A DNA stretch of 64,000 nucleotides, taken from positions 1 through 64,000 of the forward strand of contig JAFLKN010000053.1 in NCBI GenBank assembly GCA_019163175.1. The letters are read 5' to 3'. Below the pieces are notes generated by a model. It saw only the letters and a list, made by a program, of their open reading frames with translations. It had not been told where the DNA came from and did not search any database. Within the stretch, counting starts at the first letter, position 1, and each line of letters opens with the position of its first letter. Of the stretch, positions 29,647 to 51,653 are shown piece by piece. The stretch is from Prolixibacteraceae bacterium (GTDB lineage: Bacteria > Bacteroidota > Bacteroidia > Bacteroidales > Prolixibacteraceae). Both the position numbers and the translations under genes were made by a program.

Positions 29647-30867
29647 TTAAGGATAAAGCAAGTACTTTTTACGCAGCATTTTAAAGTCAGACAAACCCGG
29701 TTCCCACGAATCTCGTATCTCCTTTTCTGATTTACCCGCCCTAATTTGTTCTTTCAAGAGCGAATTACCTGCTAACTTATCGAAATTCCCCATCTGATTG
29801 CTTTGTTTGAAATCGAAGAACTTTTCCTTAGATGGATAAGCCTGGTACATTTCGAATAACCAATTCAGATTGATTTTGCCGCTTTTACGTAGCTCAGTCA
29901 GGTTATATTTCCTTAAATCAAGTCCGTAGCAGACTTTATTCTGATGCAGTGGAGTTTCACTCATTCCTTTTATACCGACAGGAGTGAACGAAAATTCGTA
30001 TTTCCCTTTTAAATCAGGATTTCCAAGTACCGTAAACGGGTAATAAGTTCCTCTGCCCTGACTGATAATTGTACCTTCAAATAAACAAAGCGAAGGATAC
30101 AACAAAATGGATTGCGCAGTATTCAAATTGGGTGACGGGGCAACTGGTAATACATATTCCGTATCATGCGAATAGTTAGCAACCTGCATTATGGTTACCT
30201 GACATTTCACCTTATTAGTCAGCCAACCTTCGCCATTGTACAACAGAGCCAGTTCGCCAACTGTCATTCCATGCGTAATGGGTATAGGGAACATTCCAAT
30301 ACCCGATTTTAGTTTCATATCCAGAATTGGTCCGTCAACTGTGAAGCCGTTTGGGTTTGGACGATCCAATACAATAAGCTGCTTCTGATTATCTGCGCAT
30401 GATTCCATTACGCGCGCCAACAGGTTGATGTAGGTATAAAATCGTGCACCCACATCCTGAATATCAAAAATAACCACATCAACATTGGCTAAATCTTCTT
30501 TTGAAGGTTTGCTCTTTTTGCCATAAAGCGAAATTTCAGGAATACCTGTTTTGGCATCGATGCTATCGGCAACCACTGCACCTGCACTGGCTGTTCCACG
30601 AAAACCGTGCTCCGGGCCAAAGATCTTTACGATGTTTACCTGTAGCGATTTCAAGCTATCGACCAGCGAAGTTTTGCCGATAATTGATGTTTGATTGGCA
30701 ACAATGGCTACCCGCTTGCCTTTGAGCAATGGCAGGTACTTTTCGGTTTGCTCTGCACCAGTTTTAATGGGTGAGGCATTTGAATTATTCAGGACAGGAT
30801 TTCCGCAAGAAATCAGGAACGTGAGTACCAAAATCAGTGTAAATAATGATGATTTGATTCGTTTCAT
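29647..30867 (-). CDS. namZ: exo-beta-N-acetylmuramidase NamZ, GH171 (DUF1343), copy 1
   Basis: Releases MurNAc from the non-reducing end of peptidoglycan fragments, the activity described for NamZ of B. subtilis and Tannerella. DUF1343 motifs: IFGPEHGFRG, VVIFDIQDVGARFYTYI, LDRPNPNGFTVDG and THGMTVGELALLYNGEG. The N-terminus MKRIKSSLFTLILVLTFLISC is a lipoprotein signal. An ATG nine codons upstream (30894) would overlap the preceding gene, so 30867 is preferred; then 7 bp separate them. Last gene of the long leftward unit; 406 residues. Confidence 0.92.
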   Translation of the reverse strand: MKRIKSSLFTLILVLTFLISCGNPVLNNSNASPIKTGAEQTEKYLPLLKGKRVAIVANQTSIIGKTSLVDSLKSLQVNIVKIFGPEHGFRGTASAGAVVADSIDAKTGIPEISLYGKKSKPSKEDLANVDVVIFDIQDVGARFYTYINLLARVMESCADNQKQLIVLDRPNPNGFTVDGPILDMKLKSGIGMFPIPITHGMTVGELALLYNGEGWLTNKVKCQVTIMQVANYSHDTEYVLPVAPSPNLNTAQSILLYPSLCLFEGTIISQGRGTYYPFTVLGNPDLKGKYEFSFTPVGIKGMSETPLHQNKVCYGLDLRKYNLTELRKSGKINLNWLFEMYQAYPSKEKFFDFKQSNQMGNFDKLAGNSLLKEQIRAGKSEKEIRDSWEPGLSDFKMLRKKYLLYP

Positions 30868-30874
30868 GGTTAGG

Positions 30875-31906
30875 CTATTTGTTAATTGTTTCAATCATTG
30901 CTAAGTAATTTTCAATGGGCACATAAGTTGGTATGCTGTTTCCCGATCCCAAAGCATAGGCTTTTGACCCGGTTAATTCCAGCATTTTCAGGCATCTTTC
31001 GGCTATAGTTTCAGGCGTACTGCGAACCAAAAAATCCATATCAATACCTCCCATAACAGCAATTTGCTCATGCCAAAGCTTCCAGGCCTCTTCTACAGGT
31101 AGAATATTGTCTTCGTACGAATGTTTGGCATCATAGTTCATATCCTCAACAACATCGTCAAGCACCTCCGAAAGATTTCCGCAGGAATGAAGTATGGCAT
31201 ATTTCCCATTTTGGTGAATGGCTTCAACTATCTTTTTATGCCAGGGAAATACAAATTGACGAAGCATATCGGGCGAGAGCATAGTTTGAGTTTTGAATCC
31301 CCAGTCGTCATTTACGATTAATGCCCCAACGGTTTCTATGGCACTGCATATTTCGTAAAAACGCAGCAAGCGCGAGCCGACCTCATCAAAAATGGCTTTC
31401 GTCAAATCCTCATCTTCGTAAATCAGAAAACAAAGCCGCTCAAAACCAACCAAATCGATTACATTTTCGAGCACACCACCCGGCGCTGAGACAATAAATT
31501 TCATTCCTTCAATCAATTCTGATGATAATTTATTCAGTAATTCGAAGTCGCCTTTTTCAGGATCAGGCCAATTGTATGATTCAAATGTTGCTCGGTTGGT
31601 TATTGCAGAACCTTCATTGAGCGATACCGTGGCTTTCTTCTCATGATCAGTGTTTTCGAACGAAAAAGCGTTAAAGTAGCGCGAAGGAATTGTGGCATAA
31701 TCATATCCTGCCCGATGAAAAAATTGAATAATATCCCGAATCTGGTCTTCCCGTTTATCTGTTCCAGCAAATGGCCTGTCGTTCACAAATGAAATCAGTT
31801 CGCCATTGACGAAATATTCAAAAAGCACTGGCCGATCAGGCTTCTGACGACAAAGCACTTTCTCCAGTTGATGAAAGTCAGCGGGATATTTTCGGGTTAA
31901 GACCAT
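30875..31906 (-). CDS. uroporphyrinogen-decarboxylase-family protein
   Basis: Cytoplasmic protein of 343 residues with a UroD-like barrel. HSCGNLSEVLDD near residue 245 resembles the HxCG(N/D) metal-binding motif of UroD-type methyltransferases (MtaA/CmuA) rather than true HemE, whose N-terminal substrate motif was not found. It starts right after the stop of the second namZ gene and ends 7 bp before the first, so it is co-transcribed with two MurNAc-releasing enzymes. No corrinoid protein is nearby. Its function is unknown; haem synthesis is unlikely. Confidence 0.8.
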   Translation of the reverse strand: MVLTRKYPADFHQLEKVLCRQKPDRPVLFEYFVNGELISFVNDRPFAGTDKREDQIRDIIQFFHRAGYDYATIPSRYFNAFSFENTDHEKKATVSLNEGSAITNRATFESYNWPDPEKGDFELLNKLSSELIEGMKFIVSAPGGVLENVIDLVGFERLCFLIYEDEDLTKAIFDEVGSRLLRFYEICSAIETVGALIVNDDWGFKTQTMLSPDMLRQFVFPWHKKIVEAIHQNGKYAILHSCGNLSEVLDDVVEDMNYDAKHSYEDNILPVEEAWKLWHEQIAVMGGIDMDFLVRSTPETIAERCLKMLELTGSKAYALGSGNSIPTYVPIENYLAMIETINK

Positions 31907-33139
31907 TTATTTGTATAAATAATATTTCTTCGATAGTTGCTTAAAAGCAAGCTCATCTTTGCGCCAGTAGGGCAACATATCTTCTACCTTCATATTTTTG
32001 GCCATCAGCAAACGAATCTGATCTGAGCCACAAACCTTGTCGAACATGTCGTAGCGCTTCTCTGTTTCCGGACCAAAACATTTCTTATCAGGATAAAGAG
32101 AAGCCATTTCCTGCATCACGTAAAACTGAATTTCAGTCAATCGGACCTTTTTATAATCGGTCAAATAAAACTGAACTCCGGAATAATTTTTCCCCTGTCC
32201 TACCGCATAAAAGGGTTTCAGGAAAATAGGCCGAAACAAAACTCCGGGCAATTGCAGCTTATTTAAACGCTGACTTAATGCTGAAGCATCAATCGAGTCT
32301 TTAGCGAATAGCTGAAAAGGAAGGGTGTAGCCCACTCCTATCGACATAAAGCTGAACTCACCTAAAATTCCTGAAGCCGCATAATAATAAGCCGAAGTTG
32401 CTTGCGGAACATGAGGAGATGTCAGCACCCAAGGCAAATCGGTTTGATCAAAAGTCAGGCTTCGTTTCCAGCCTTTCATTGGAACAACAGTGAGTTTGCA
32501 TTGCTTTTTCAGCATATTCTCGCCATTCAGCAGTTTTGCCAATTCGCCACAGGTAAGTCCGTAGATGTAAGGAATTTTGAATTGACTAACGAAAGAAATG
32601 AACTTATCTTCGGCCAGATTGCCTTCCACTTTTAACCCACCAACCGGGTTTGGACGATCCAATACAACAAATTCGATATTATTTTCGGCAGCAGCTTCCA
32701 TTGCAAGCCCCATTGTGCTGATGTAGGTATATGAACGGCAACCAATATCCTGAATGTCGTAAACCAACACATCCACATCCTTCAACATTTCAGCGTTGGC
32801 TTTGCGGGTTTTGCCATAAAGCGAATACACCGGAATTCCGGTTTGTTTATCGATGGTGGTTTCTATTTTATCTCCAGCATAAACATCACCACGCACGCCA
32901 TGCTCCGGCCCGTAAAGTGCTACCAGCTTCACTCCTTGAGCCTCGTTCAGAATATCGACGGATGATTTCAGCTGCGAATCGACTCCTGTTGGGTTCGTGA
33001 TCAACCCAACGCGTTTACCCTGAAGTATTTTAAAATTGCTTTCACGCAATACTTCAATTCCGGTTCTCACCTTTGAAGCGGCAAAGGCATTCAAAATCAG
33101 GAATGATAAAAGGGTAATCAGAAAGGTTTTTGTTTTCAT
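31907..33139 (-). CDS. namZ: exo-beta-N-acetylmuramidase NamZ, GH171 (DUF1343), copy 2
   Basis: Second NamZ homologue, 410 residues, with a cleavable signal peptide (ending NAFAAS) instead of a lipoprotein signal. Motifs: LYGPEHGVRGDVYAGD, VLVYDIQDIGCRSYTYI, LDRPNPVGGLKVEG and GLTCGELAKLLNGEN. The two copies keep the same framework but differ widely, so they may act on different fragments or in different places (soluble here, membrane-anchored in copy 1). The UroD-like gene begins at the very next base. Confidence 0.92.
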   Translation of the reverse strand: MKTKTFLITLLSFLILNAFAASKVRTGIEVLRESNFKILQGKRVGLITNPTGVDSQLKSSVDILNEAQGVKLVALYGPEHGVRGDVYAGDKIETTIDKQTGIPVYSLYGKTRKANAEMLKDVDVLVYDIQDIGCRSYTYISTMGLAMEAAAENNIEFVVLDRPNPVGGLKVEGNLAEDKFISFVSQFKIPYIYGLTCGELAKLLNGENMLKKQCKLTVVPMKGWKRSLTFDQTDLPWVLTSPHVPQATSAYYYAASGILGEFSFMSIGVGYTLPFQLFAKDSIDASALSQRLNKLQLPGVLFRPIFLKPFYAVGQGKNYSGVQFYLTDYKKVRLTEIQFYVMQEMASLYPDKKCFGPETEKRYDMFDKVCGSDQIRLLMAKNMKVEDMLPYWRKDELAFKQLSKKYYLYK

Positions 33140-33172
33140 TGCTAGGTTTAATTTATTTTAGTTTTACGCTAT

Positions 33173-33322: not shown

Positions 33323-35230
33323 TCAGTCCTTCAATTGCTTATAAATGGCCGATAATATTTCAGTTCGCACATTCAAATCGCTGATAAGACTATTGTTGCG
33401 GGTTGGATAAACACGATTCGACAGGAAAACATACATTAACCGGGTTTTTGGATCCATCCATACAAAAGTTCCGGTAAACCCGAAATGGCCAAAGCTTTCA
33501 GGACTCACTTCCGGACAAGGATAAGCTTCGGAAGGTTTCAGCGAATCGAGATTAAGCGAAGGTTTATCGAAAATCACACCCCGGCGATTTTTGTTCTGCG
33601 GAAACTGAGCTCGGGTAAATTCTTTCATGGTTGCCTCGCTCACGTATTGTTTTCCGCCATAGGTTCCCATTTGCAAATACATTTGCATCAGTTTTGCCAA
33701 ATCGTTAGCCGAAGCAAAAACACCCGCATTTCCTGAAATTCCTCCCAAAACAGCAGCCGACTCGTCGTGAACCGTTCCCTGAATCAACTGATAACGGTAG
33801 TAAGTATCGAGTTCGGTGGGTGCAATCTGGTCGCGCGAAAAACGATCGAGTGGATTATAGGTAATGGCATAAGCGCCCAAAGGTTTGTAGAATTGGTCTT
33901 CCACATAGGTCTTAAAATCAGTCCCCGAAATGCGCTCAACAATTTGAGGAGTAATTACCAAAGGCAAATCGCTGTACACATACTTACCTCTGGTTTTAAG
34001 CGGAGTCTGGCGAATCTCGCGATTTACAACTTTCTGAAATTTCTTATGCAGATACATTCCGGGAGCCACACAGAGCGTGTGATTTTTGTCGGGTGCCGCC
34101 GTGTACCATTTGGGCGATGGCTTCCCATTTTCCATAGTCTGCTTGTAAAAGCCTATAAAAGGAACCAATCCCGACTGGTGAGCATACAATTCGCGGACAG
34201 TCACATCAGACTTGTCGGATCGGTGAAACAGACGATTTTTCCAGTCAGTGAAATAGTCAGCAACTGGTTTATCCAGATTAATTTTTCCTTCATCGTACAA
34301 TTTCAATACTCCCGGCAAACCACCGGTTACTTTAGTCACCGAAGCAAGATCATACAAATCGTCCAATCCAGCCGGTTTGACTTTTTCAAAGGTCTGGTAA
34401 CCATACGCTTTTCTGAAAATGATTTTACCATCTTTAGCCACCAGCACATTACATCCGGGAAATGCTTTTTTCTCCAGCGCATTATTCACAATCGAATCGA
34501 TATCGCTGTTCAAATCAGCCGACGAGATGCCAACTTCCTCAGGAAGCGTGTATTTCAACCGAACCGGCTTTTCAATGTTGATTCCGGCACCCTGCTGATA
34601 CGTCGTTCCAATGTTGGCAGTTAATTTTCCTGAAGCTCCGATTCCACCGAAAATTAACTGAGCCGATAAAGACTGGGCTAAACTATCGTTATCCAGAGCC
34701 AGAATAAGTCCTGCAGGTTTTCCGGCACTTTTTACAGTGGCAAAAGCCTCCGGCTGACAGAAAAAGGTAATAACTGAAGTCCGTTCCCGATTCAAAAAAC
34801 TGATCAGTTTGGGGAGTTCCGTTGATGAATTGACAACATGAATTCCGGCAACGACCAAATTAAAGCCAGTCAGTTTCGATTGCATGTCTGCCAAATCCTG
34901 AGTTGTGAAATTCGCAGGAAGATTAAAAAAATCAACCTTCATGTAATTCTCCAGCATATGTTGAAATTCAGTTGGTCTCTCAGAACCAACCGAAAGTGCA
35001 GCAATTCTTAAGGTATCGAGACGTGCGAATGGGATCAGGTTATTTTTGTTCTCGAGCAAGACCAGTGAGGCTTCAATTTGTTGCCTTTTCTTCAATTCGG
35101 CTTCCTGTTCGTTCGCCGATTGGCACGAAACCAGTGCAACACCTAAAGCTGGAAGCATTGACCAGAAAAGAAAAACTAATCCAATTTTAAGGAACAAACC
35201 TGGTTTTAATTTTAAGCCGATTGATTTCAT
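33323..35230 (-). CDS. serine hydrolase (AmiE/beta-lactamase fold) fused to an orphan GH3_C domain
   Basis: Lipoprotein, C43 lipobox in the 642-codon numbering from the GTG at 35251; the ATG at 35230 (MKSIGLKLKPG) is the better start. Residues about 55-215 resemble the C-terminal domain of NagZ-type GH3 enzymes (ASLVLLENKNNLIPF), but the GH3 catalytic barrel is missing. Residues about 240-640 form a class C beta-lactamase-type hydrolase: SVTK (S304-K307), YSD in YVYSDLPLV, and GHFGFTGT. In B. subtilis, nagZ, amiE and namZ are adjacent and AmiE, of this fold, is a MurNAc-L-Ala amidase. The same job is likely here, by analogy. Confidence 0.82.
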   Translation of the reverse strand: MKSIGLKLKPGLFLKIGLVFLFWSMLPALGVALVSCQSANEQEAELKKRQQIEASLVLLENKNNLIPFARLDTLRIAALSVGSERPTEFQHMLENYMKVDFFNLPANFTTQDLADMQSKLTGFNLVVAGIHVVNSSTELPKLISFLNRERTSVITFFCQPEAFATVKSAGKPAGLILALDNDSLAQSLSAQLIFGGIGASGKLTANIGTTYQQGAGINIEKPVRLKYTLPEEVGISSADLNSDIDSIVNNALEKKAFPGCNVLVAKDGKIIFRKAYGYQTFEKVKPAGLDDLYDLASVTKVTGGLPGVLKLYDEGKINLDKPVADYFTDWKNRLFHRSDKSDVTVRELYAHQSGLVPFIGFYKQTMENGKPSPKWYTAAPDKNHTLCVAPGMYLHKKFQKVVNREIRQTPLKTRGKYVYSDLPLVITPQIVERISGTDFKTYVEDQFYKPLGAYAITYNPLDRFSRDQIAPTELDTYYRYQLIQGTVHDESAAVLGGISGNAGVFASANDLAKLMQMYLQMGTYGGKQYVSEATMKEFTRAQFPQNKNRRGVIFDKPSLNLDSLKPSEAYPCPEVSPESFGHFGFTGTFVWMDPKTRLMYVFLSNRVYPTRNNSLISDLNVRTEILSAIYKQLKD

Positions 35231-35247
35231 ATTCCCGTTTATTAAAT

Positions 35248-35706
35248 TCACAATTTATTTATTTCCAACTGTCTGCAAATCCTTTCCAATTCCGCTTCTG
35301 CAGAATCAACATTTTCAGCCTTTGCCAAAGGCATTAACTCTTTACCCTTCGAATCATACAAAATCAGCCGGTAATCTTCGGTGGTACTATCCAGCGTTCT
35401 GTTGCCTCCACTGTAAGTTCGCCATATTTTTCCCGACCTTCTGATTCCTATTTTCATATCTGGTTTTACATTCAGCCATTCTCCGGTTTTTATTATTCCA
35501 AACAGATTATTCAGAAACCGGACTCTTTTTTGGCCTGAATCAACTTCGGTGCTCGAATAAGTAAACCCGACAAATGCCCCGATAACAAGTAAAAGCAGCG
35601 AGAACAACGAAAACCAGACTGAAGCTAAACCAGCCACAAACACGATTATTCCGGAGAAAGAACCTACCGGTCCAAAAGATTTATCGAGTTTGTTATGGCT
35701 TATCAT
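35248..35706 (-). CDS. small two-helix membrane protein, unknown function
   Basis: A 152-residue protein with two adjacent hydrophobic helices (about 14-32 and 33-51) and a soluble C-terminal part rich in basic and polar residues. No family was recognised. It ends next to the start of the AmiE-like gene and starts 7 bp after the DUF4922 gene, so it belongs to the long leftward unit. Confidence 0.65.
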   Translation of the reverse strand: MISHNKLDKSFGPVGSFSGIIVFVAGLASVWFSLFSLLLLVIGAFVGFTYSSTEVDSGQKRVRFLNNLFGIIKTGEWLNVKPDMKIGIRRSGKIWRTYSGGNRTLDSTTEDYRLILYDSKGKELMPLAKAENVDSAEAELERICRQLEINKL

Positions 35707-35713
35707 TTTATAC

Positions 35714-36700
35714 TCAATTTAAGTCTTGTTTGATTTTCTCGTTCAATTCCTGAAAAGTATCCTCATCAACGCACACTTGCGTCAGAATATCCACAATATT
35801 TTCGCTCGTTAACTTGTCAAAATCTTCTTGTCGCGGAAGTATAAAAACTCCGCCAAAATCAACCGAACCGGGGCTAATTAAAATATGCTCGGCTCCTTTG
35901 GCAAAAAACTGAGTTGGCCGGTGAGCTTTCCGTGGAAAGAGATGAATAATCCATTTTCCTTCAGAAAAAGTGCACAAGGCATTCATCATAGGCTCAACTT
36001 TTTCGACTTGCATGGCCTGAAAATGGAGATAATAAACGCCAATAATCCGCAAAGCTTCTTCCATCGAATTGGTCTCAATCGAAATCATTTTCCGGAGAAA
36101 ATGATCAAATGCCCAAACCTGAGTTTCCGCTCTGGAATAAAGAATTCGGGCTGTTGATTTCAAGCGGTCAAAATCCTCGTTAACAGGCAAAAAATCACTC
36201 TCGCCTGCCTGAAAATGAAGATGATCCGGAGCTGAAGCCCCACATTCAGGTCCATTGTAGAATACAGTAAAACCTTCCATAGCCACAGCAAGTTCGAGCA
36301 AGTAGCGCACATTGGGTGTAAAACGCTGATCGACATGCTTATTTGACGATACCGTAAAATGGTATTTAAAAATTGGGAACGGATTGACCAAAATCAGAAA
36401 CTGATCGCCAAACTCAATGGCATCCTGCTCTGCCGGACGATTTTCATTACACAAAAAGCATTTTCGGGCAGCAATCGATTTTTTATCGACATTGGACACC
36501 GACGACAGCATCCGTTCCGGATTAAACTGAGCCCGAATATCAAATCCATTAAAATGAAAACTCCTTTCTTTTACCTTCTCCAGACCTTTAAAATTAGCTG
36601 CAGCCAATGGCCATGTGAGCTTTTCAGCCTCAACAAATTCCCGAAGAATCTGAGCGGCTGACTGATTTGTTTCTTTTATAATATCAAGCAATTGAGCCAT
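35714..36700 (-). CDS. DUF4922 protein, GalT/HIT-like nucleotidyltransferase fold
   Basis: A 328-residue cytoplasmic protein. KCFLCNENRPAEQ (about 80-92) has a CxxC of the kind that binds zinc in galactose-1-phosphate uridylyltransferase, and GASAPDHLHFQAG has the HxHxQ catalytic motif of the GalT and Ap4A-phosphorylase branch of the HIT superfamily. It is therefore a likely nucleotidyltransferase or phosphorylase of sugar phosphates or dinucleotides. Its immediate partners are the GT2 upstream and salvage genes downstream. The specific reaction is unknown. Confidence 0.72.
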   Translation of the reverse strand: MAQLLDIIKETNQSAAQILREFVEAEKLTWPLAAANFKGLEKVKERSFHFNGFDIRAQFNPERMLSSVSNVDKKSIAARKCFLCNENRPAEQDAIEFGDQFLILVNPFPIFKYHFTVSSNKHVDQRFTPNVRYLLELAVAMEGFTVFYNGPECGASAPDHLHFQAGESDFLPVNEDFDRLKSTARILYSRAETQVWAFDHFLRKMISIETNSMEEALRIIGVYYLHFQAMQVEKVEPMMNALCTFSEGKWIIHLFPRKAHRPTQFFAKGAEHILISPGSVDFGGVFILPRQEDFDKLTSENIVDILTQVCVDEDTFQELNEKIKQDLN

Positions 36701-36763: not shown

Positions 36764-38221
36764 CTATTTTCCTAATCTTTTTCGTGCTTTTAATTCGATG
36801 GTACGAATGCGGTCTTTGTACAAATTATGACCGTTCATCACTTCAATGCTCAGGGCAGCATCCGAATTATCGTCCCAACGGCGACACAGGTAAATCGGGT
36901 TATAAATGCGGCCAATCTGGTACTGGCGCGAAATGGCCAATCCCAAAGCGTAGTCTTCGCCATAATTCACATTCGGCACCGGAATACGTCGTAGTACCGG
37001 GGTATAAAATGCCCGCGGCGCGCCTAGTCCATTAATCCGAAGTGCATTGTTGCGGCCATTTTCGGGCGTCCATTCCTTGTGATCAATTATACCGGGAGGT
37101 ATTTCTTCCAATGCAAAATTGACCATTTGATAAGTTCCCACTACCATAGCGCAGTTTTGCTGATAAAATGCATCGACAACCTGCTGAACAGTAGTTTCGT
37201 CAAAATACAAATCATCGCTGTCGAGCTGAATGGCGAACTTCCCGCATTTCGGGTGATTAGCTGCCAGATTCCAGCAACCGCCAATTCCAAGATCGGTGCG
37301 ATCGGGAATAACATGAATTAAACGATCATCTGCTTCAGCATAATTCTGAATGATTTCAGAAGTTCCGTCAGTTGAGAAATTGTCAGCGATAATAAGGTTA
37401 AACCTGAAGCTGGCTTTTTGGGCCAGAACTGATTTTATGGCATCTTCTATGGTTCGAACCCGGTTACGGACCGGAATAATCACTGATGCTTCTACTTCAA
37501 AAACCTGCTCATCAAATTTCACGGGAGTAAAAACAGGTTCGAGATAACCACCTACATTTTTGAGGTGTTGAGTGCAGGCTTTTTCCATTTCAATTTGTAC
37601 TGCCCGGTTTTTAGGATCAACGTAATCAAATATTTTTTCGCCCGATTTACGGAGATCCGATTCCTTTTCAGTATATAAAAACTCTGGAATCCGGAACAAT
37701 TCGGCATACTGCGAAACACCCAAACGGAGTGCATACAATCCGGCAAAAGCAAAATCTTCAGCCACCCCCTCAGCGGCTTTTTTCATGATTTCGGTGCGAT
37801 AAAAAAGTACCGATCCAAAGTTGAAATCATCGCGCAGACTTCCTTCCTGATAGTCTATCACCGGCTGATTCTCAACCTTACCGCCTTTTACAGCCAGATA
37901 ATTCGAATAAACCAAACCACTTTGAGTATCGTCGGCAATCTGTGCAAAACGTTCGAGCGCTTTTTGTCCAAGTTGCAAAGCTCCGGGGCGCGTATAAATC
38001 AATGTATATCGGGTATTGGCCAAAGTGGCCATGCGCTTCACTGTTTTTCCGTAAGTCATGGGTTCCGATTTCAACATCTCTGCGCCATCAACCAAACAAT
38101 TTTGCTCAGCGCCACACACCACATAAATCTGCGAAACCAAGTCCGACTTTCTTAATTCCTGAATGGTTGCAAGCGTTTCTTCCTGCGAACCAAAAGGGAT
38201 AAAGCATGTAATTTTTTTCAT
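36764..38221 (-). CDS. family 2 glycosyltransferase with N-terminal extra domain
   Basis: Of 485 residues from the ATG at 38221 (MKKITCFIPFG); an ATG 15 codons upstream is possible but adds a sequence unlike the family. A first, degenerate GT-A-like half (about 1-230) precedes a clear GT2 domain (about 240-440): SVIIPVRNRVRTIEDAIKSV, IIADNFSTDGTSEI and QLDSDDLYF with the DxD site. No transmembrane helix, so cytoplasmic. Followed after 63 bp by the DUF4922 gene. Acceptor and donor are unknown. Confidence 0.82.
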   Translation of the reverse strand: MKKITCFIPFGSQEETLATIQELRKSDLVSQIYVVCGAEQNCLVDGAEMLKSEPMTYGKTVKRMATLANTRYTLIYTRPGALQLGQKALERFAQIADDTQSGLVYSNYLAVKGGKVENQPVIDYQEGSLRDDFNFGSVLFYRTEIMKKAAEGVAEDFAFAGLYALRLGVSQYAELFRIPEFLYTEKESDLRKSGEKIFDYVDPKNRAVQIEMEKACTQHLKNVGGYLEPVFTPVKFDEQVFEVEASVIIPVRNRVRTIEDAIKSVLAQKASFRFNLIIADNFSTDGTSEIIQNYAEADDRLIHVIPDRTDLGIGGCWNLAANHPKCGKFAIQLDSDDLYFDETTVQQVVDAFYQQNCAMVVGTYQMVNFALEEIPPGIIDHKEWTPENGRNNALRINGLGAPRAFYTPVLRRIPVPNVNYGEDYALGLAISRQYQIGRIYNPIYLCRRWDDNSDAALSIEVMNGHNLYKDRIRTIELKARKRLGK

Positions 38222-38349
38222 TTCCTTCTTTTTACAAATTGAACCATATAGGCTCATCGGCCACAATAGTTTTTATTATTTTATCTAAATACAAATCCTA
38301 ATTTAATTCACTGGTTGCATACACATCTAAAAATGACACACATCGTTTT

Positions 38350-41467: not shown

Positions 41468-41525
41468 ATATCGTTCTGTTTTGAACTTGTTCCGTTCGTT
41501 ATTTGACAAGGAAAAAGATTGGGCA

Positions 41526-44133: not shown

Positions 44134-45648
44134 CTATTTCTTAAATTCCACCGGATAGCTTTCGTGATGCGAAGGACTAATGGCTGTTACCGCATACCGA
44201 TATTTTCTGAGCCGGGTATTTTTGTTCGACTCAACGATCAACGATTTTTCATTGGTAACGGTATAGATATGCTCCGGATTTTCAATGTTCAAGTTAGCCT
44301 TTTTGCCGAGTTTATAAACCACAAACATCCGATTGTTATCAGCATTTTCCCAACTGAGTTCGAAGGCTTTATGTTTTTTGCGAACAACAGGATGTTCAGG
44401 AGTTCCCGGCTTAAGCATTTTCACCCTCGGATTTGGTGGCGTCAGCGCAGGAAAAGTGTACATATCTTTCAGCAGAAGCTCTTTAATTCCCATCGGATTT
44501 TTCCGGAGTGATTTACCACTAAAAAATACACTTCCAGAAATAGCCGGAATACTCCGGTTCAGCTTAATCTGGTTAATTATTTCTTCAGGCGTTTGCCATG
44601 ATTTTTCTTGTGATTTTTCATTAACGAGAAAAGGAGCCTGACCAATGTATAACTGGCATCCGTAAGTGTTTTTGCTCCACCAATCAACCAAAACAGCATA
44701 ATCAGCAACAGTTTTTCCAATGTGCCAGTACAATTGCGGTGTAACGTAATCAATCCAGCCCTCTTTTTGCCACAGCAGAATATCGGCATACAAATCGTCA
44801 TAGTTGGTAACACCTGCTTTGGTAGCCGATCCTGCCAGATCGGTCGAGTTGTTCTTCCATACTCCAAAAGGCGAAATTCCGAATTCCACTGTTTCCCTGA
44901 TTGATTTAATTGTGTCGTGCAATTGTTTGATGATCATGTCAACATTATTTCGCCGCCAATCATCCTTTTTGTCAGGAGCAAATCCGTTAGGATAAGCCAC
45001 AAACGAGTTTTGATCTGGAAATTCAAGCCCGGCAATCCGATAAGGATAAAAATAATCGTCAAAATGGATGGCATCTATGTCGTATCTTCTTACCAAATCA
45101 GCCACGACACGCGCCACATGGTTGCGCACTTCCGGAATTCCGGGATCGAAATACTTCTTGTTTCCATAGGTTAGTAACCATTCCGGATGAGTATTTGCCA
45201 CATGAGTAGATGCCGGAACAGATTTCACGATATTCTGTACTGCCCGATACGGATTCAGCCAAACATGTATATCCAATCCCCGTTTACGGCACTCAGCAAT
45301 GGTAAACGCTAGCGGATCGTAATACGGATCGGGAGCAATACCCTGCTTTCCGGAAAGCCATTCTGACCAGGGTTCCAGATTGGATTCAAATAAAGCATCG
45401 GCATCCGGCCTGATTTGAAAAACGACAGTGTTCATGTTCCAGGCCTTCACCTGATCCAACAGTTCGATCATTTCAGCTTTCTGCCTTTCGGTAGTCAACC
45501 CTTTTTCCGATGGCCAATCAATGTTTTCAACAGTGGCAATCCAAAAAGCACGCATTTCGTGTTTTGGATAGTGTTGAGAAAAGGTTGAGGTCGTAACCGT
45601 AATGAGTATCAAAAGGGTAAGAACCCGGAATCGAGATTTTATCTTCAT
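44134..45648 (-). CDS. GHL10-type (DUF187) glycoside-hydrolase-like protein, second copy
   Basis: A 504-residue exported protein (signal ends TSTFSQ). The domain begins HEMRAFWIATVENIDWPSEKG and contains FQIRPDADALF, IHVWLNPYRA and IHFDDYFYPYR, followed by a C-terminal FN3-like domain. It is clearly a paralogue of the lipoprotein at 21458-22921 but has a cleavable signal rather than a lipobox. Placed 61 bp before the symporter gene. Substrate unproven; the two GHL10 genes, one in each cluster, suggest a shared target. Confidence 0.88.
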   Translation of the reverse strand: MKIKSRFRVLTLLILITVTTSTFSQHYPKHEMRAFWIATVENIDWPSEKGLTTERQKAEMIELLDQVKAWNMNTVVFQIRPDADALFESNLEPWSEWLSGKQGIAPDPYYDPLAFTIAECRKRGLDIHVWLNPYRAVQNIVKSVPASTHVANTHPEWLLTYGNKKYFDPGIPEVRNHVARVVADLVRRYDIDAIHFDDYFYPYRIAGLEFPDQNSFVAYPNGFAPDKKDDWRRNNVDMIIKQLHDTIKSIRETVEFGISPFGVWKNNSTDLAGSATKAGVTNYDDLYADILLWQKEGWIDYVTPQLYWHIGKTVADYAVLVDWWSKNTYGCQLYIGQAPFLVNEKSQEKSWQTPEEIINQIKLNRSIPAISGSVFFSGKSLRKNPMGIKELLLKDMYTFPALTPPNPRVKMLKPGTPEHPVVRKKHKAFELSWENADNNRMFVVYKLGKKANLNIENPEHIYTVTNEKSLIVESNKNTRLRKYRYAVTAISPSHHESYPVEFKK

Positions 45649-45748: not shown

Positions 45749-47233
45749 CTATTTGAGATACTCAACTTCCATATGCCAGTTCCACTTATCGAAGTAGAGG
45801 TTTCCTCCCTCCCACTCCAATTCGCCGCGCTGAAGATCATACGGTTCGCTTCTTGGGAATTTCTTTTCCGGAACCAATTTGCGACCATAATCATCATTCA
45901 CAATCAAACGGTACGAATCAATTCCTGAGCTGTAAAAATTCCTGACTTTCTCGTCAGAACTACTTTGTAAGCCGAACGACTGATCGACAGGTACCCAACC
46001 TACACCTTCAAAATATACTTCACACCAATCGTGCAGATTCACATTACCCGGATGCAGCATCCATCCACTTTGCCATTTTGCCGGAATACCCTGCGAACGA
46101 ACCAAGGTCATAAAAAGCAAAGTCTGCATACCACAATCGCCATGACGGGTATTCATCACATAGCCCGGAATATCAGGCATAATACTGTATTCGAGCGCGC
46201 TGGCCCAGCGAATCGAATCGTTGATCCATTGGTAAATTTTCTGAACTTTTTCCAGCGGATTGGTCTCGACGGAAAGAATCTGGTCAGCCAACTTTTTGAT
46301 CTGCGGTGTAAACACAATCTGCGGGGCCCGCTCTCGGGTATTTTCCTTGTAAACCGAACTTTCCATGTCGTACGGCTTTATGTCTTCCTGCTTCAAATCA
46401 AAATACTGAGCAGAACTTTCAACTTCAAATTCGAGTCTAAAAAAAGTGGGCTGATCTTTTACAGCCTTCTTTTCCAGATATATGGTGCGCTGTAAATTTT
46501 CGTTTCCGGCAATCTGATTGTTTTCCGGATCTGAGCTGATCAGACGAATCTTAGTTTGTCGGGCATTCCCTTCTCTTGGAAAAGGCAGCCAGCAACGAAT
46601 AGTTTTTCCTTTAGGAACTACATTATCATCCGCATCGACGAAATAACTCAATTTCATTCGAACAGGCATCGTTGTTTGTCCTGAAGTTTTAGTCGCTGAA
46701 ATAACATTTTGAGTTTGCTGCAAACGGAACAAATCAAGCGAATCAACCTGCGAACCGTCCACTTTAACTTTATAGGTTCGCGCTTCATCGTCGAGCCGGA
46801 ACAAGTTGGGGACGGCATTCTTGAAATAGCGTTTCTCGCCATCAATCATACGCATTTCCAATTTCTGAGTGGTTTCCCATTTACGGAAAAGTGCGGTATC
46901 CAATACCGGAAAATATTTTGAAAGACGCTCTTTTAGTTCGTCTTCAGTCAACCTAAAATCGACCCGGATACGCCGACCAATTTCAACAATCGAATCCAGT
47001 TTATATAAATTGTCGGCAGCTAAAGAACCGCTTGCCTTCAAGGAATCAGCCAACAATTCAGCCTTTTTAATTTCACCGGAACGCACCATTTCTTCAATTC
47101 CTGAAAAATCAAATGGTTTTTCAGGAGTAGTTTTACAGGCAAAATAAAATACCATAAAAATGCCACCCCAAATAAACAATCTGGTCGTTTTTCGCAATTG
47201 GTATGACAAAAACATTCTATTAAAACCTATCAT
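45749..47233 (-). CDS. transglutaminase-like lipoprotein
   Basis: A 494-residue lipoprotein with signal ending VFYFAC. The transglutaminase-fold core (about 320-440) has the Cys in NTRHGDCGMQT, the His in LHDWCEVYF and the Asp in VPVDQSFG, a complete catalytic triad. Bacterial members usually act as peptidases or amidases on peptide bonds rather than cross-linkers, so a peptidoglycan stem-peptide role is plausible. The start at 47233 is acceptable; an internal Met at 47215 is an alternative. The GH9 gene ends 17 bp upstream. Confidence 0.85.
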   Translation of the reverse strand: MIGFNRMFLSYQLRKTTRLFIWGGIFMVFYFACKTTPEKPFDFSGIEEMVRSGEIKKAELLADSLKASGSLAADNLYKLDSIVEIGRRIRVDFRLTEDELKERLSKYFPVLDTALFRKWETTQKLEMRMIDGEKRYFKNAVPNLFRLDDEARTYKVKVDGSQVDSLDLFRLQQTQNVISATKTSGQTTMPVRMKLSYFVDADDNVVPKGKTIRCWLPFPREGNARQTKIRLISSDPENNQIAGNENLQRTIYLEKKAVKDQPTFFRLEFEVESSAQYFDLKQEDIKPYDMESSVYKENTRERAPQIVFTPQIKKLADQILSVETNPLEKVQKIYQWINDSIRWASALEYSIMPDIPGYVMNTRHGDCGMQTLLFMTLVRSQGIPAKWQSGWMLHPGNVNLHDWCEVYFEGVGWVPVDQSFGLQSSSDEKVRNFYSSGIDSYRLIVNDDYGRKLVPEKKFPRSEPYDLQRGELEWEGGNLYFDKWNWHMEVEYLK

Positions 47234-47250
47234 TTTTTTGACCTCACTGG

Positions 47251-49710
47251 TTAAAATTTTTCGGTTGAATATCCCTTTTTCTTCAAATAACTTATTAGTT
47301 CTCCTAACCGATTGTAAAACTTATCGGTACGTTCGGGAGCTGTTCCCAAATGAATCAGCATAATGCAGCCGTTCAGTCCATTGGGATCTTTCTTTTCAAA
47401 AGCTTTAATGTCGTTCATAATGGTTTCCGACGATCGGTAACCAGTCATAACCGGCGTAGTATAATCAGCATTCGAGCGAATTCCAGGAGTAAAATTGATC
47501 ACCTTTAAACCCATTTGACGGCACCAATCCACGCTCTCAGCATTGTACCACTCGTATGGAGGCAAGAATACCGACGCTTTTTCAGGCGTAATACCAAAAC
47601 CAGCCATTTTTAGATAATTGGCTTTCAAATCCTCTGCAAATTGCGTTTGATTGACCAGTGATAAATCGCGTTTTGTCCAATCGGCATACAACAAATGTCC
47701 GTCGGAATGTGCACCAAGATAATGGCCATCAGTTATTAAACTCTGAATAAGCGACTTATTATCAGCATTCTTATAAAAAGTTCCGGTAAAGAAAAATGAA
47801 GCTTTTGCTTTGTTCTTTTTCAACGTTTGAGCAATTACTTTTCCACCTTCGGCAAATTCATGAGCCGAAAAAATCAAATAGACTTTCTTTTCGTTCCGAT
47901 CGGTACGAACCACTGCCCCTTCAGAATCTACAAGCGATTTATCCGATTCGTTTTCAGTTTCGAGCGACGAAAGCAAATAACTCAAACTGGCGGTTCCGTC
48001 CATCGTTGGTTCGTTGGTCGAATAGTCGCCCATATCGTCGTGGTAAACAGCCTTTCCGTTCTGGAATTCAGCATATTCATCGGCTTCGTGCAATGCAATT
48101 CCTAACAGACTTTTGTAAATATGCGAGTAAACAGGCCCATCAACCAATCCGCCGGTAGTTGTTTTTTTTAGGATGTGTGTCAATGATGAATGTGGAATTG
48201 CTGGATAATCACCACCAGCCGGAAGTCCGCAAATCATAGATGTACCCCACGGATTGCATCCCAAAAGCCAGTCAGTCAGCGCTGTCTCCATGTCTTCGAA
48301 ACTGGTATCTCCAGTAATTTTCCTGTACAATTTAGCCTGAGTTGCTGCTGCCACCACAAAATTATTGGAACACCATACAAAGGGTACCCCAATTTTAAAC
48401 GGATCGGTGCCAGCATATTTTCGGATTTGCTCCAACCCCTGTTTCATCAAACCGGTGAACTGCCTGGCAACGACCGGATCCGTGGACTGCGCCAGCAAAG
48501 CGTGTCCAAGGTTGACAAACGGATAGAACTGGTAATGACGGGCGCGGTTAAGTTCCATCCAGGGCGAAACGGGTTCCAGTTCGCCCCAGTATTTGGCTTC
48601 CTTCTGAAAATCAGTTTGTTTATTCAGCGGTATTCGTGTGGCAGCGGCCAATTCCATATCATCAACCCAATTGTCTTCTTCGTAAAAATAGGGCGAAACC
48701 ATACAGGCAGTTTGGCAATTCCCCAAATCTGATTTCGCGAAATACCAGGCATCGTTTGACTTTGCCAGCATTTGATCAGCAAACTGAGGATCAATATTCT
48801 TGAATATTAAAGCGCCCAAGGCAAATGAGGAAGAAAACTTAGCCGCGATAGACGAAACGCCGGTTGTGCGGTTTTTATATCTACCCAATCCCTGCGTTTT
48901 TCCGGTAACAAAATAAACCGGGCGGAACAAATTCTCCAGCCCATAGCTCGCGGTATCTTTATTGGGAAGGCGAAGTCCAACATGATCGCGGTCGTCGGCA
49001 ATCTGGTTATACATTTCATTTTTAGCCGGATTCATCCGCATGAGCCATTCCAAACCCCAGCGGGCCTCATCCAGAATATCAGGAATCCCATTAATTCCAA
49101 GCTTTCCGTTAGCATCAAAGCGATCGGCATAAGCGGTTGGATTTTGCTGATAAGCGAACAGCAACTGATAAATGGCATTGGCCGAAGTGGTCGTGTATTG
49201 CAGGTAATCCGAAGCATCGTGCCAGCCTCCTACCACATTGATCCGTTGACCTGTTTTGGTAGGATGATCAACAATGATTCCATCGTGTGTATGACAGGAA
49301 TCGTTCAGGTACGGATTGTACCCGCAGCGCTGCTGACGCATATAATTCAGGATAAAATCGGCAGTACCTTTATAAACTTCTGTAGAAATCCGAAAAGATG
49401 GCGAGATAGCATTTCCGGCTTTCAGGTAATATCCACCTTCTTGCTGAAATGCCGTAAAATTCAGTCTATATGCAGCTCGCTGTCCCCAAACCGAAGGATC
49501 GGCAGCTTCCGTATTGCCCTCGTAAACCAGTTTTCCTGAAAGAGTTTCGTAAAGCTGAAATGAAGAAATATCATTTGTCTTGTCCGAAAGAAATACCGCA
49601 ACTTTAACTGAATGAGGTAAATATCCAAGCTGATTGATCCGGATAACCTCGTAAGCCGAGACTCCGAATGAAATCAAACAAAAAAAACACGAAAGAAAAA
49701 ACACTTTCAT
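47251..49710 (-). CDS. GH9 glycoside hydrolase fused to a NodB-like deacetylase domain
   Basis: Exported 819-residue protein. Signal (1-19), Ig-like N-terminal domain (about 20-110), GH9 catalytic domain (about 112-585) with GGWHDASDY (D165, D168) and the acid Glu567 in TNEPTMDG, then a NodB-fold domain (about 608-815). In the latter, metal ligands H668 and H672 are present (HSDGH), but motif 1, normally TFDD, is IFSAHE, and RxPY is replaced by LPPY, so activity is uncertain. Some GH9 enzymes are exo-glucosaminidases of chitin-derived sugars; a glucosamine/GlcNAc substrate fits this setting better than cellulose. First gene of the long leftward unit. Confidence 0.88.
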   Translation of the reverse strand: MKVFFLSCFFCLISFGVSAYEVIRINQLGYLPHSVKVAVFLSDKTNDISSFQLYETLSGKLVYEGNTEAADPSVWGQRAAYRLNFTAFQQEGGYYLKAGNAISPSFRISTEVYKGTADFILNYMRQQRCGYNPYLNDSCHTHDGIIVDHPTKTGQRINVVGGWHDASDYLQYTTTSANAIYQLLFAYQQNPTAYADRFDANGKLGINGIPDILDEARWGLEWLMRMNPAKNEMYNQIADDRDHVGLRLPNKDTASYGLENLFRPVYFVTGKTQGLGRYKNRTTGVSSIAAKFSSSFALGALIFKNIDPQFADQMLAKSNDAWYFAKSDLGNCQTACMVSPYFYEEDNWVDDMELAAATRIPLNKQTDFQKEAKYWGELEPVSPWMELNRARHYQFYPFVNLGHALLAQSTDPVVARQFTGLMKQGLEQIRKYAGTDPFKIGVPFVWCSNNFVVAAATQAKLYRKITGDTSFEDMETALTDWLLGCNPWGTSMICGLPAGGDYPAIPHSSLTHILKKTTTGGLVDGPVYSHIYKSLLGIALHEADEYAEFQNGKAVYHDDMGDYSTNEPTMDGTASLSYLLSSLETENESDKSLVDSEGAVVRTDRNEKKVYLIFSAHEFAEGGKVIAQTLKKNKAKASFFFTGTFYKNADNKSLIQSLITDGHYLGAHSDGHLLYADWTKRDLSLVNQTQFAEDLKANYLKMAGFGITPEKASVFLPPYEWYNAESVDWCRQMGLKVINFTPGIRSNADYTTPVMTGYRSSETIMNDIKAFEKKDPNGLNGCIMLIHLGTAPERTDKFYNRLGELISYLKKKGYSTEKF

Positions 49711-49844
49711 AGTTGCGCTGGTTTTCGGAATTGGGTTCAGGGATTAAGTACGTAAAAAAGACACCTTATAAAGATATAAATCAATTTTCAGGAGGTGCTT
49801 CCAATCAGGAATTATTTACTTTCGCATCCATTCTAAACCTGGAT

Positions 49845-49852
49845 CAAAAATA
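49845..49852 (-). promoter_or_regulatory. candidate -7 element of the GH9 operon
   Basis: The reverse strand reads TATTTTTG, an exact TAnnTTTG, 135 bp before the GH9 start. No -33 was found at the usual distance, but the shared activator-like motif lies 24-40 bp upstream, in reverse orientation. The divergent units may therefore be controlled from one site. Confidence 0.45.
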
Positions 49853-49875
49853 GCGGAATAAATGAATTTTTAAAT

Positions 49876-49931
49876 ATTGGTAATACATGTTATATGATAC
49901 ATTTATTTTCAATTCAAAATCCCTATCTTTA
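49876..49931 (+). promoter_or_regulatory. murK promoter with upstream motif shared with susC
   Basis: ATTGGTAATACATGTTA (49876-49892) is followed at a start-to-start distance of 48 nt by TATCTTTA (49924-49931), a one-mismatch -7 element, with transcription expected near 49938 and the ATG at 49979. Motif and distance repeat those upstream of susC. ATACAT occurs twice, 14 bp apart. No -33 TTTG is present, which fits an activator-dependent promoter. Confidence 0.6.
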
Positions 49932-49978
49932 CCACTGAAAACAACAAAACGAATTTCTGCTAAACACATAAGCCCCCA

Positions 49979-50824
49979 ATGAGATTAATCGCAGATAGTG
50001 GATCGACCAAAGCAGCCTGGAAATTAATCGGAAACTCCGGTGAGATAAAGGATATCAAGACTTCTGGAATCAATCCTTTTTTCCGTTCGGAAGACGACAT
50101 TTTCATGGATCTGGAAAAGTCGCTATTGCCTGAAACAGGAACTGAAATCACAGAAATATATTTTTACGGAACTGGTATTATCAATACCGAAAAAGGCGAT
50201 ATCATCCGGGGTGCTTTAAACCGGATTTACCCACAAGCCTCGATAGAAACGCATAGCGATGTATTGGGAGCTGCCCGCGCCTTATTTGGCAACAAAGCTG
50301 GAATTGCCTGCATTCTGGGAACCGGCTCGAATGTTTGTTTGTATGACGGAAAAGAAGTTACAGGTGGAGTTTCGCCACTTGGATTTATACTGGGCGATGA
50401 AGGAAGTGGGGCTGTAATGGGGCGAAAATTGTTGGGCGACTATTTCAAAGAAGTTATGCCGCTGAATCTGCGCATCGATTTTGAAGCCCGCTACAAACTG
50501 ACCCGAGAAGAAGCATTGAACCGTGTTTACCGCAGCGAAAAACCCAATCAATTTCTGGCTCAGTTTACTCCATTTTTGTCAGAACATGCAAATTCGGCGT
50601 ATTGTCAGGAATTTGTTCAGCGAAATTTTATGGAATTCTTTGAGCGTAATGTCAGTCATATTCCAGATTACACCAGCTACCCAATCGGGTTTATCGGTTC
50701 GGTGGCTTATTATTTCAGCCAAATACTGAACAACACGGCCAGTTACTTTGGCTTCGACGAAACAACGATACTTAAAGATCCGATTGACGGATTGGAAAAA
50801 TATTACTCGCAAGAAAAAATTTAA
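49979..50824 (+). CDS. murK: BadF/BcrA-type sugar kinase, MurK-like
   Basis: A 281-residue ATPase-fold kinase. MRLIADSGSTKAAWKLI is the first phosphate loop, CILGTGSNVCLYDG the second, and GFILGDEGSGAVMGRKLLGDYF the adenosine region, as in BadF-type N-acetylglucosamine and MurNAc kinases. It is 10 bp upstream of murQ, whose substrate MurNAc-6-P would be made by phosphorylating MurNAc, hence the MurK name; GlcNAc kinase activity is also possible. In Tannerella a homologous kinase is co-transcribed with the MurNAc transporter and murQ. Confidence 0.85.
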   Translation: MRLIADSGSTKAAWKLIGNSGEIKDIKTSGINPFFRSEDDIFMDLEKSLLPETGTEITEIYFYGTGIINTEKGDIIRGALNRIYPQASIETHSDVLGAARALFGNKAGIACILGTGSNVCLYDGKEVTGGVSPLGFILGDEGSGAVMGRKLLGDYFKEVMPLNLRIDFEARYKLTREEALNRVYRSEKPNQFLAQFTPFLSEHANSAYCQEFVQRNFMEFFERNVSHIPDYTSYPIGFIGSVAYYFSQILNNTASYFGFDETTILKDPIDGLEKYYSQEKI

Positions 50825-50834
50825 GATACACAGA

Positions 50835-51653
50835 ATGACAACAGAAAGTACAACCGAAGCCGATTCATTGTATAATGATCTGGAAAACAAGTCGGTAAAA
50901 GAGCTTTTATTAAGCATTCACGAAGAAGACAAAAAGGTATTGCCTGCCGTAAATGAGGCTATCCCCCAAATCGAAAAACTGGTCGAACAGGTTTATCAAC
51001 GCATGAAAAAAGGCGGGCGATTGTTTTACCTCGGAGCCGGAACCAGCGGACGGCTGGGCATATTAGACGCTTCCGAAATTCCACCTACTTTTGGCGTTGG
51101 TCACGATTTGGTGATTGGCCTGATTGCCGGTGGCGACCGTGCTATCCGTAAAGCGGTTGAAATGGCTGAGGACGACGAAGAACAGGGTTGGAAAGACCTG
51201 GAAAAGTACCAGGTAAACAAGTTGGATACGATTGTCGGAATAGCAGCCTCGGGGCGCACGCCTTATGTGATTGGTGCCGTTAAAAAAGCTCGTGCCGAAG
51301 GTTTGCTAACTGGCTGCATTGTAAATAATAACGGCAGCTCGTTAGCTCAAAGTGTCGACATTGCCATTGAAGCCATCGTTGGTCCTGAATTCCTGACTGG
51401 CAGCACCCGCATGAAATCGGGCACTTCGCAAAAACTTATTCTGAACATGATTACCACCTCGCTGATGATAAAACTCGGACGCGTAAAAGGCAACAAAATG
51501 GTGAACATGCAGTTAACCAATCAAAAACTGATTAACCGCGGAACCCGCATGATTATGGCTGAGCTGGGCTACAACGAAGTAAAAGCCAAACGTTTGCTGC
51601 TACTACATGGATCGGTAAACAATGTACTACTGGCCGAAAAGGAAGAAAAGTAA
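50835..51653 (+). CDS. murQ: N-acetylmuramic acid 6-phosphate etherase
   Basis: Removes the lactyl group of MurNAc-6-P to give GlcNAc-6-P and lactate. SIS-domain protein of 272 residues: FYLGAGTSGRLGILDASEIPP, AGGDRAIRKAVEMAEDDEEQG, GIAASGRTPYV and TGSTRMKSGTSQKL are the MurQ signatures. A frame open from 50748 overlaps murK, but the ATG at 50835, 10 bp after the kinase, gives the family N-terminus and is preferred. A terminator follows. A second, truncated copy of its 3' end lies at 53371-53526. Confidence 0.95.
   Translation: MTTESTTEADSLYNDLENKSVKELLLSIHEEDKKVLPAVNEAIPQIEKLVEQVYQRMKKGGRLFYLGAGTSGRLGILDASEIPPTFGVGHDLVIGLIAGGDRAIRKAVEMAEDDEEQGWKDLEKYQVNKLDTIVGIAASGRTPYVIGAVKKARAEGLLTGCIVNNNGSSLAQSVDIAIEAIVGPEFLTGSTRMKSGTSQKLILNMITTSLMIKLGRVKGNKMVNMQLTNQKLINRGTRMIMAELGYNEVKAKRLLLLHGSVNNVLLAEKEEK

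Follow-up and report, generated by a model that had tools for sequence, protein, structure and literature searches.

A probable peptidoglycan-utilisation locus in a Prolixibacteraceae bacterium, and a MurT orthologue that resembles HGSNAT acetyltransferases

The 64,000-nucleotide stretch analysed here (the window) comprises positions 1 to 64,000 of contig JAFLKN010000053.1 from a Prolixibacteraceae bacterium (order Bacteroidales; assembly GCA_019163175.1), and holds a probable locus for the use of peptidoglycan, in which our main interest is a gene labelled ‘NagX’. Thirteen open reading frames (ORFs) occupy 29647-49710 on the minus strand, and diverging from them on the plus strand is a pair of ORFs at 49979-51653, murK and murQ. 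In transcription order, the leftward unit encodes a GH9-NodB fusion, a transglutaminase-like protein, a GHL10 hydrolase, a symporter of the SSF family, the HGSNAT-family protein ‘NagX’, a golvesin protein, a GT2 glycosyltransferase, a DUF4922 protein, a 152-residue hydrophobic protein, an AmiE-like hydrolase, NamZ1, a URO-D-like protein and NamZ2. An earlier note on this DNA had proposed the leftward unit and the rightward pair as a peptidoglycan-salvage locus; both are present, and the families it named are mostly right, with the GHL10 hydrolase at 44134-45648 left out of its list. In the divergent intergenic region between GH9-NodB and murK (49711-49978, no strand assigned) and its surroundings, a consensus scan of 49700-51900 gave seven promoter-like sites where shuffled sequence gave 4.3 on average (standard deviation 2.3), which is uninformative, and no promoter or terminator signal in the region stood clearly above shuffles.

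We read the whole, with a probability of about three in four, as a locus for peptidoglycan utilisation that is related to the ampG-murTKQ operon of Tannerella forsythia but larger, and that includes a MurT orthologue likely to be an acetyltransferase. What the sequence shows directly is the gene families, the conserved core neighbourhood, the orthology and the conserved active-site residues. In its available text, PMC5388701 gives the T. forsythia operon (Tanf_08345-08385) as xanthan lyase, gtf, gtf, lytB, ampG, ybbC, murT, murK and murQ. The contig it names, NZ_JUET01000082 of strain ATCC 43037 (L223 in our set), reads golvesin (cut by the end of the locus), GT2, DUF4922, SpoIID, AmpG, NamZ, NagX-like, MurK and MurQ, a match at nine positions from which it follows that the second ‘gtf’ is the DUF4922 gene, and murT the NagX-like gene.

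The window gene in question (41526-42635, minus strand; HGSNAT_cat) matches the L223 gene at 8832-10004 at 44%, and in a profile search each of the two was the best match of its own genome, with 516.6 bits against 141.5 for the next protein in the window genome, and 660.5 against 74.4 in T. forsythia. Since both proteins were in the profile, their top rank is partly a matter of construction, while the gap to the paralogues is not. By operon position and genome search, the ‘NagX’ gene is the orthologue of the published N-acetylmuramic acid (MurNAc) transporter MurT (Tanf_08375, the locus tags of the L223 genes being assigned from gene order rather than from record annotation). The two differ in placement: murT adjoins murK in T. 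forsythia, whereas murK of the window is divergent and four genes away. We also considered the SSF symporter as the MurT orthologue and rejected it, since both gene order in T. forsythia and the genome search speak against it; that species carries its SSF homologue separately, on a different contig.

A search of the PDB with a profile of ten MurT orthologues returned only HGSNAT chains at an E-value of 1 or better, the best at 1.3e-33. For HGSNAT, the accessible part of PMC11199644 describes a catalytic dyad, H297-D307, with N286 as its stabiliser, and the binding of the 6'-OH and 3'-OH of glucosamine (GlcN) by R372 and E499, respectively. Read off the alignment, N286, H297, D307, R372 and E499 are N25, H39, D49, R110 and E192 of the window protein. 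In a set of 60 sequences, which includes the window protein and from which homologues of 100 bits or fewer or 300 residues or fewer were dropped, N25, H39 and D49 are kept in all 59 rows with a letter (one gap each), and R110 and E192 in 60 of 60. As far as sequence can tell, the MurT orthologue has the HGSNAT/TmAT site, with the catalytic N, H and D and the GlcN-binding R and E, and this site is shared with human HGSNAT and the TmAT (DUF5009) proteins. Human HGSNAT, at 706 residues, is however far from the 369 of the window protein, whose gene lies in a MurNAc locus and whose T. forsythia orthologue has been reported as a transporter. The only NCBIfam match of the window protein is Shewanella NagX (NF046061), at 156.6 bits, which does not reach the equivalog cut-off of 480.

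This joins two lines of research, one on MurT as a family of MurNAc transporters in Bacteroidota, the other on DUF5009/HGSNAT proteins as transmembrane acetyltransferases. The literature searched, which did not cover Ruscitto 2016, held nothing that connects them, perhaps because T. forsythia MurT scores below both Pfam cut-offs (HGSNAT_cat, 21.6 against 22; DUF5009, 19.2 against 25). In the portions available, MurT figures in PMC5790795 as a sodium symporter and, elsewhere in the same paper, as a member of the major facilitator superfamily, and in PMC7670621 as a novel family; a 2025 paper states that no member of DUF5009 had been experimentally confirmed. Our result indicates that a protein known in Tannerella as an importer of cell-wall sugar belongs to a family of sugar-acetylating membrane enzymes.

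We predict that the MurT orthologue most likely still acts as a transferase, taking acetyl groups from acetyl-CoA in the cytoplasm and passing them to an amino sugar in the periplasm, probably GlcN; in HGSNAT the conserved Glu contacts a free 3-OH, so GlcN would be favoured and muramic acid, which carries its lactate there, disfavoured. More specifically, MurT may be a bacterial HGSNAT that re-acetylates N-deacetylated sugars, likeliest GlcN, at the periplasmic face, with the SSF symporter carrying MurNAc, or acetyl transfer may alternatively be coupled to sugar entry; we advance this tentatively, at a little under even odds. If true, resistant de-N-acetylated peptidoglycan could enter the salvage routes for N-acetylglucosamine (GlcNAc) and MurNAc.

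The strongest rival takes MurT and its orthologue for genuine MurNAc permeases built on a reused TmAT fold, in which the conserved site residues serve transport, and it too falls somewhat short of an even chance. In its favour, and against a purely enzymatic MurT, the accessible sections of PMC5790795 report that an E. coli strain without MurP had to be given MurT as well as MurK of T. forsythia before it could grow on MurNAc, which favours transport by MurT; a T. forsythia ampG deletion mutant, according to a source available in part, still grows on MurNAc. Named genomes were also scanned with a MurK alignment that had the T. forsythia protein at its head. In the best 80 of 579 loci, selected by similarity to that protein and thus no census, NagX/MurT stands directly upstream of MurK in 49, which accords with the salvage reading. 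What speaks for a permease is that the slot is otherwise filled by transporter genes, SSF in five loci and AmpG in four; it holds a lactate dehydrogenase-like gene and GT2 in one each, none of the tested genes in 18 and the edge of the locus in two. On the other side, all five catalytic and substrate residues of HGSNAT are invariant, HGSNAT itself is described in the excerpted text of PMC11199644 as gated by side chains without large transporter movements, and the SSF and MurT genes stand side by side in some loci, the end of the former overlapping the start of the latter in the window.

The SSF sodium/solute symporter (42604-44073, minus strand; PF00474, 4.7e-25) is a reasonable candidate for a MurNAc importer. 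A search for MurT covered seven genomes whose slot upstream of MurK holds SSF (five genomes) or AmpG (two of the four): Porphyromonas gulae (SSF-MurK-MurQ) and G595 gave no MurT match at an E-value of 1e-3, three gave only distant matches (about 133-152 bits), G592 has a true MurT, and the match in G596 is a fragment at the end of a contig, which allows no judgement. The first two imply that an SSF-MurK-MurQ unit can exist without MurT. An SSF homologue (E-value 1.7e-143 or better) was found in all six genomes searched, T. forsythia included.

The kinase and etherase named by the earlier note are borne out. MurK (49979-50824, plus strand) aligns with T. forsythia MurK (8ow9, 1.5e-69; also 8oqw, 7.6e-70), its best PDB match being the uncharacterised 1zxo (8.4e-78). 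It keeps the equivalents of D95 and of S133-P134-L135, the lactyl pocket named for MurNAc specificity, with T94 replaced by Ser, and on homology, pocket and D95 it is a predicted MurNAc kinase. The MurNAc-6-phosphate etherase MurQ (50748-51653, plus strand) passes TIGR00274 barely (302.6 bits, cut-off 302) and PRK05441 clearly (363 bits, cut-off 168), and its start is probably the ATG at about 50835. In the best 80 loci of the MurK scan, MurQ lies within 600 bp of MurK in 58. Many of the named loci, and L040 at 9942-12806 (genome G238), also have an FAD/4Fe-4S oxidase resembling D-lactate dehydrogenase between NamZ and MurT; such an enzyme would suit the D-lactate released by MurQ, and none was seen in the window cluster.

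Seven of the nine T. forsythia operon genes have homologues in the window (golvesin, GT2, DUF4922, NamZ, MurT, MurK and MurQ), which differs in its divergent murK-murQ and in its additional genes for NamZ2, SSF, GHL10, GH9-NodB, the transglutaminase-like, AmiE-like, URO-D and 152-residue proteins, together with a neighbouring block of SusC/SusD and peptide-salvage genes. In B. subtilis, namZ, nagZ, amiE and murQ lie together. The window likewise has NamZ, an AmiE-like hydrolase and MurQ; unlike that set, the unit lacks a complete NagZ, its AmiE-like protein is without the GH3 catalytic domain, and a NagZ-AmiE fusion lies elsewhere in the genome. On contig C4 (L317) of the same genome, a run of genes on one strand has an alpha/beta hydrolase gene flanked by AmpG and SpoIID homologues.

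Conservation was assessed mainly around GT2, a strong homologue of which (E-value 1.4e-104 or better) occurs in 41 of 198 genomes of the order besides the window's own. Neighbourhoods were compared for 21 of the 41 (two first fetched around golvesin; the second-copy loci G000b and G230b were dropped), several of which end at contig edges, so that the counts are lower bounds. DUF4922, AmpG and MurK each recur in at least 16 of the 21, NamZ1 and SpoIID in 12, MurQ in 11, and golvesin and NagX in eight; the other cluster genes are scarcer, with NamZ2 and GHL10 in three, SSF, AmiE and GH9-NodB in two, the transglutaminase-like gene in one, and URO-D and the 152-residue protein in none. The 14 window ORFs used as controls, which belong to neither the cluster nor the left block, each turn up in none or one (23 were originally chosen, of which nine make up the left block later assigned to the locus, and the 14 are therefore given apart). 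The core is conserved together beyond chance, and the additions recur little or no better than the controls. The nearest arrangement, in G525, has on one strand GHL10, NamZ2, SSF, GT2, DUF4922, AmpG, NamZ1, NagX, MurK, MurQ, a metallophosphatase-like gene and GH9-NodB. A golvesin search of 395 genomes of the phylum found a match in 60 at an E-value of 1e-3; among its 40 strongest places (39 genomes, 2e-93 or better), NamZ homologues (1e-8) lie near golvesin only in G230 and G238, so the golvesin protein alone is no marker of the whole cluster.

These comparisons support the earlier note's salvage locus, and its idea that the genes stay together holds for the core. Its claim of novelty mostly fails: of the genes it placed outside the described sets, GT2, DUF4922 and NagX all sit in the published T. 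forsythia operon, which already has golvesin, GT2, DUF4922, NamZ, ‘NagX’, murK and murQ. URO-D does lie outside those sets, with no homologue at an E-value of 1e-15 in 141 neighbourhoods; GH9-NodB is rare, yet is found near salvage genes in five of 11 relatives. We class the locus as an enlarged relative of a known type of operon rather than as a system of a new kind.

Both NamZ copies match NamZ_N and NamZ_C far above cut-off, as the earlier note's two GH171 exo-muramidases require, and are NamZ by domain, with exo-muramidase activity predicted. NamZ1 (31907-33139, minus strand; NamZ_N, 3.3e-86; PDB 4k05, 1.1e-173) is 61% identical to NamZ of the T. forsythia operon, and NamZ2 (29647-30894, minus strand; NamZ_N, 1.8e-74; NamZ_C, 1.5e-34) probably starts at an ATG near 30867 and has a possible lipobox by pattern match. 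Two NamZ enzymes are already known for T. forsythia, to judge from a title in the reference list of PMC10465942. The AmiE/PBP4B-like serine hydrolase (33323-35251, minus strand; PF00144, 6.6e-47), with its GH3-C-like N-terminus, is 42% identical over 484 residues to residues 384-861 of a NagZ-AmiE fusion elsewhere in the genome (L113, ending at 861 of a 981-residue frame), which runs GH3, GH3-C-like, serine hydrolase. The AmiE-like assignment of the earlier note stands for the last two parts, while the GH3 (NagZ) catalytic domain is absent from 33323-35251; a similar 634-residue form adjoins NamZ2 in G535.

The remaining leftward genes are all on the minus strand. The GHL10 hydrolase (PF02638, 2e-77) belongs to what we take to be the family of E. 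coli DigH, and the transglutaminase-like cysteine hydrolase (45749-47233; PF01841, 1.7e-20) has DCG and HDW motifs, and in L229, G074 and G224 its homologues are no more than about 3 kb from epimerase and NlpC/P60 genes. The exported GH9 and NodB-like fusion (47251-49710; PF00759, 5.4e-68; PF01522, Polysacc_deac_1, 6.3e-12) has strong relatives (E-value 2.3e-72 or better) in 11 of 198 genomes of the order, the window's own not counted: fused in six, separate adjoining genes in one, GH9 without adjoining NodB in three and NodB alone in one. Salvage genes stand beside five (G525, G501, G413, G556 and G465), and the flank of G546 is too short to judge. The URO-D/MtaA-like protein (30875-31906; PF01208, 5.4e-25) yielded nothing beyond family membership, and the 152-residue protein (35248-35706), hydrophobic in a crude scan, has no Pfam or NCBIfam match and no homologue at 1e-15 in the 141 neighbourhoods.

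The DUF4922 protein (35714-36700; PF16269, 2.4e-57) has an HxHxQ motif, invariant in eight of eight sequences, which we take to be that of the GalT/Ap4A phosphorylase superfamily. Its model (predicted local distance difference test score, pLDDT, of 86) is closest in Foldseek to yeast Ap4A phosphorylase, 4i5t (1.1e-9), with GalT weaker. This protein of a salvage operon can now be assigned an Ap4A-phosphorylase/GalT-like fold on its model, and is predicted to be a nucleotide-sugar phosphorylase or transferase. The GT2 glycosyltransferase (36764-38266; PF00535, 1.2e-21) is 61-62% identical to its T. forsythia counterpart; outside the window, on contig C33 of the same genome (L202/L203), another GHL10 gene is followed directly by a second GT2 paralogue (56%). 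The golvesin or ‘xanthan lyase’-type exported protein (38381-41509; Golvesin_C, 6.9e-25, with fn3) keeps H178, E201, H521 and E604 in eight of eight sequences, an H-E-H-E order that may correspond to the pattern of Amidase_3 enzymes.

To the left of the unit, the minus strand continues with a SusC-type TonB-linked outer-membrane transporter (26237-29338; TIGR04056, 3.1e-188), a SusD-like lipoprotein (24431-26224; PF12771, 1.1e-26), a second GHL10 hydrolase (21458-22954; PF02638, 1.2e-63), an SH3-NlpC/P60 murein peptidase similar to YkfC (20230-21426; PF00877, 6.7e-22, and SH3_16), a YkfB/YcjG-like dipeptide epimerase or racemase of the enolase superfamily (19066-20217; MR_MLE_C, 1.4e-32), which the DgcA and L-Ala-D/L-Glu epimerase models hit at sub-threshold scores, and a GH20 hexosaminidase (12373-14613; PF00728, 2.2e-117) as a possible end. 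Two small ORFs after SusD, and an esterase with a type IX secretion system (T9SS) tail and an S9 peptidase before GH20, share the run. SusC and SusD adjoin glycan enzymes, as in a SusCD polysaccharide utilisation locus. Epimerase homologues occur with salvage genes in eight of the 141 neighbourhoods and NlpC/P60 in six, and in L229, G074, G224 and G432 the two share a neighbourhood with transglutaminase-like, AmpG and golvesin genes. The block at 12373-29338 looks like the peptide half of a salvage locus whose left boundary is probably near 12373, and we propose one sugar-plus-peptide locus.

A route can be proposed, in which every substrate, direction and activity in this organism, along with membership of the left block, is our prediction. 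SusC and SusD would import cell-wall fragments, which the exported proteins (two GHL10 hydrolases, golvesin, AmiE-like, NlpC/P60, transglutaminase-like and GH9-NodB) would strip of peptide and cut in the glycan; NamZ1 and NamZ2 would release MurNAc, and the GH20 of the locus or NagZ elsewhere in the genome GlcNAc. MurNAc would cross the inner membrane via the SSF symporter, the MurT orthologue or both, to be phosphorylated by MurK and relieved of D-lactate by MurQ, giving GlcNAc-6-phosphate, and the epimerase would handle L-Ala-D-Glu. The locus would give a broad view of cell-wall utilisation, probably covering both sugars and peptides.

Several observations weigh against reading the region as an enlarged Tannerella-type peptidoglycan locus. 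The AmpG and SpoIID homologues lie outside the window, on contig C4. The MurNAc-L-Ala amidase of the earlier note is not established: the golvesin protein had no amidase domain called by Pfam, scores 18.7 bits against Amidase_3 (PF01520; cut-off 27), gave a probability of 1.2% in an hhalign comparison with an amidase alignment of two sequences only, and has a predicted fold too poor to use (pLDDT 52), so that it is a weak candidate for such an amidase with a golvesin insert. In the fusion protein both domains are called, as had been claimed, and the GH9 domain is nearest to an endoglucanase (3x17, 3.5e-36; weakly 5dgq, 8.6e-8, and 6gdt, 5.5e-5). The TFDD motif, which we take to be canonical for NodB deacetylases, is FSAHE in the window and occurs in none of nine sequences compared, which leaves the NodB deacetylase assignment weak. 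The fetched flanks of five of the 11 GH9-NodB relatives (G586, G238, G504, G517 and G437) had no match to the tested salvage proteins. Apart from SusC, present in eight, each left-block gene is found in just zero to two of the 21 order neighbourhoods, so that its place in the locus is argued from position, strand and annotation, together with a few distant loci. A role of GH9-NodB as a replacement for NagZ was also considered, and is unsupported given the NagZ-AmiE fusion, the endoglucanase likeness and the degenerate NodB motif.

It is unlikely that recycling of the bacterium's own wall, as opposed to use of foreign peptidoglycan, is the main task of the locus. GHL10 and AmiE-like enzymes do act in self-recycling in other bacteria, but a SusC/SusD pair adjoins the unit and most of the hydrolases have hydrophobic N-termini in a crude scan. 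A locus for another amino-sugar polymer, such as chitin or heparin-like glycans, with murK-murQ as a neighbouring unit, is very improbable: GH9, GH20 and the HGSNAT-family gene would suit other glycans too, and some GH9-NodB relatives were found without salvage neighbours, but two NamZ copies, MurK, MurQ, NlpC/P60 and a dipeptide epimerase are present, and T. forsythia and many relatives have NamZ, NagX, MurK and MurQ side by side.

Beyond murQ, a hybrid two-component regulator (54566-58672, minus strand; Reg_prop, HisKA, Response_reg and the AraC-type HTH_18) is a candidate regulator of the locus; in T. forsythia, according to the available part of PMC5388701, GppX, likewise a hybrid regulator and with an AraC-type domain, activates the operon. 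A FISUMP-domain protein lies at 51833-53104, with a T9SS sorting domain at residues 78-151, before FISUMP rather than C-terminal, and a protein with four LysM domains and a periplasmic-binding-like part at 58780-60954. At the left end of the window, the plus strand of 1-12300 holds arginine-biosynthesis-type genes (argininosuccinate synthase, aminotransferase, amino acid kinases and carbamoyltransferase) and a tRNA-Pro.

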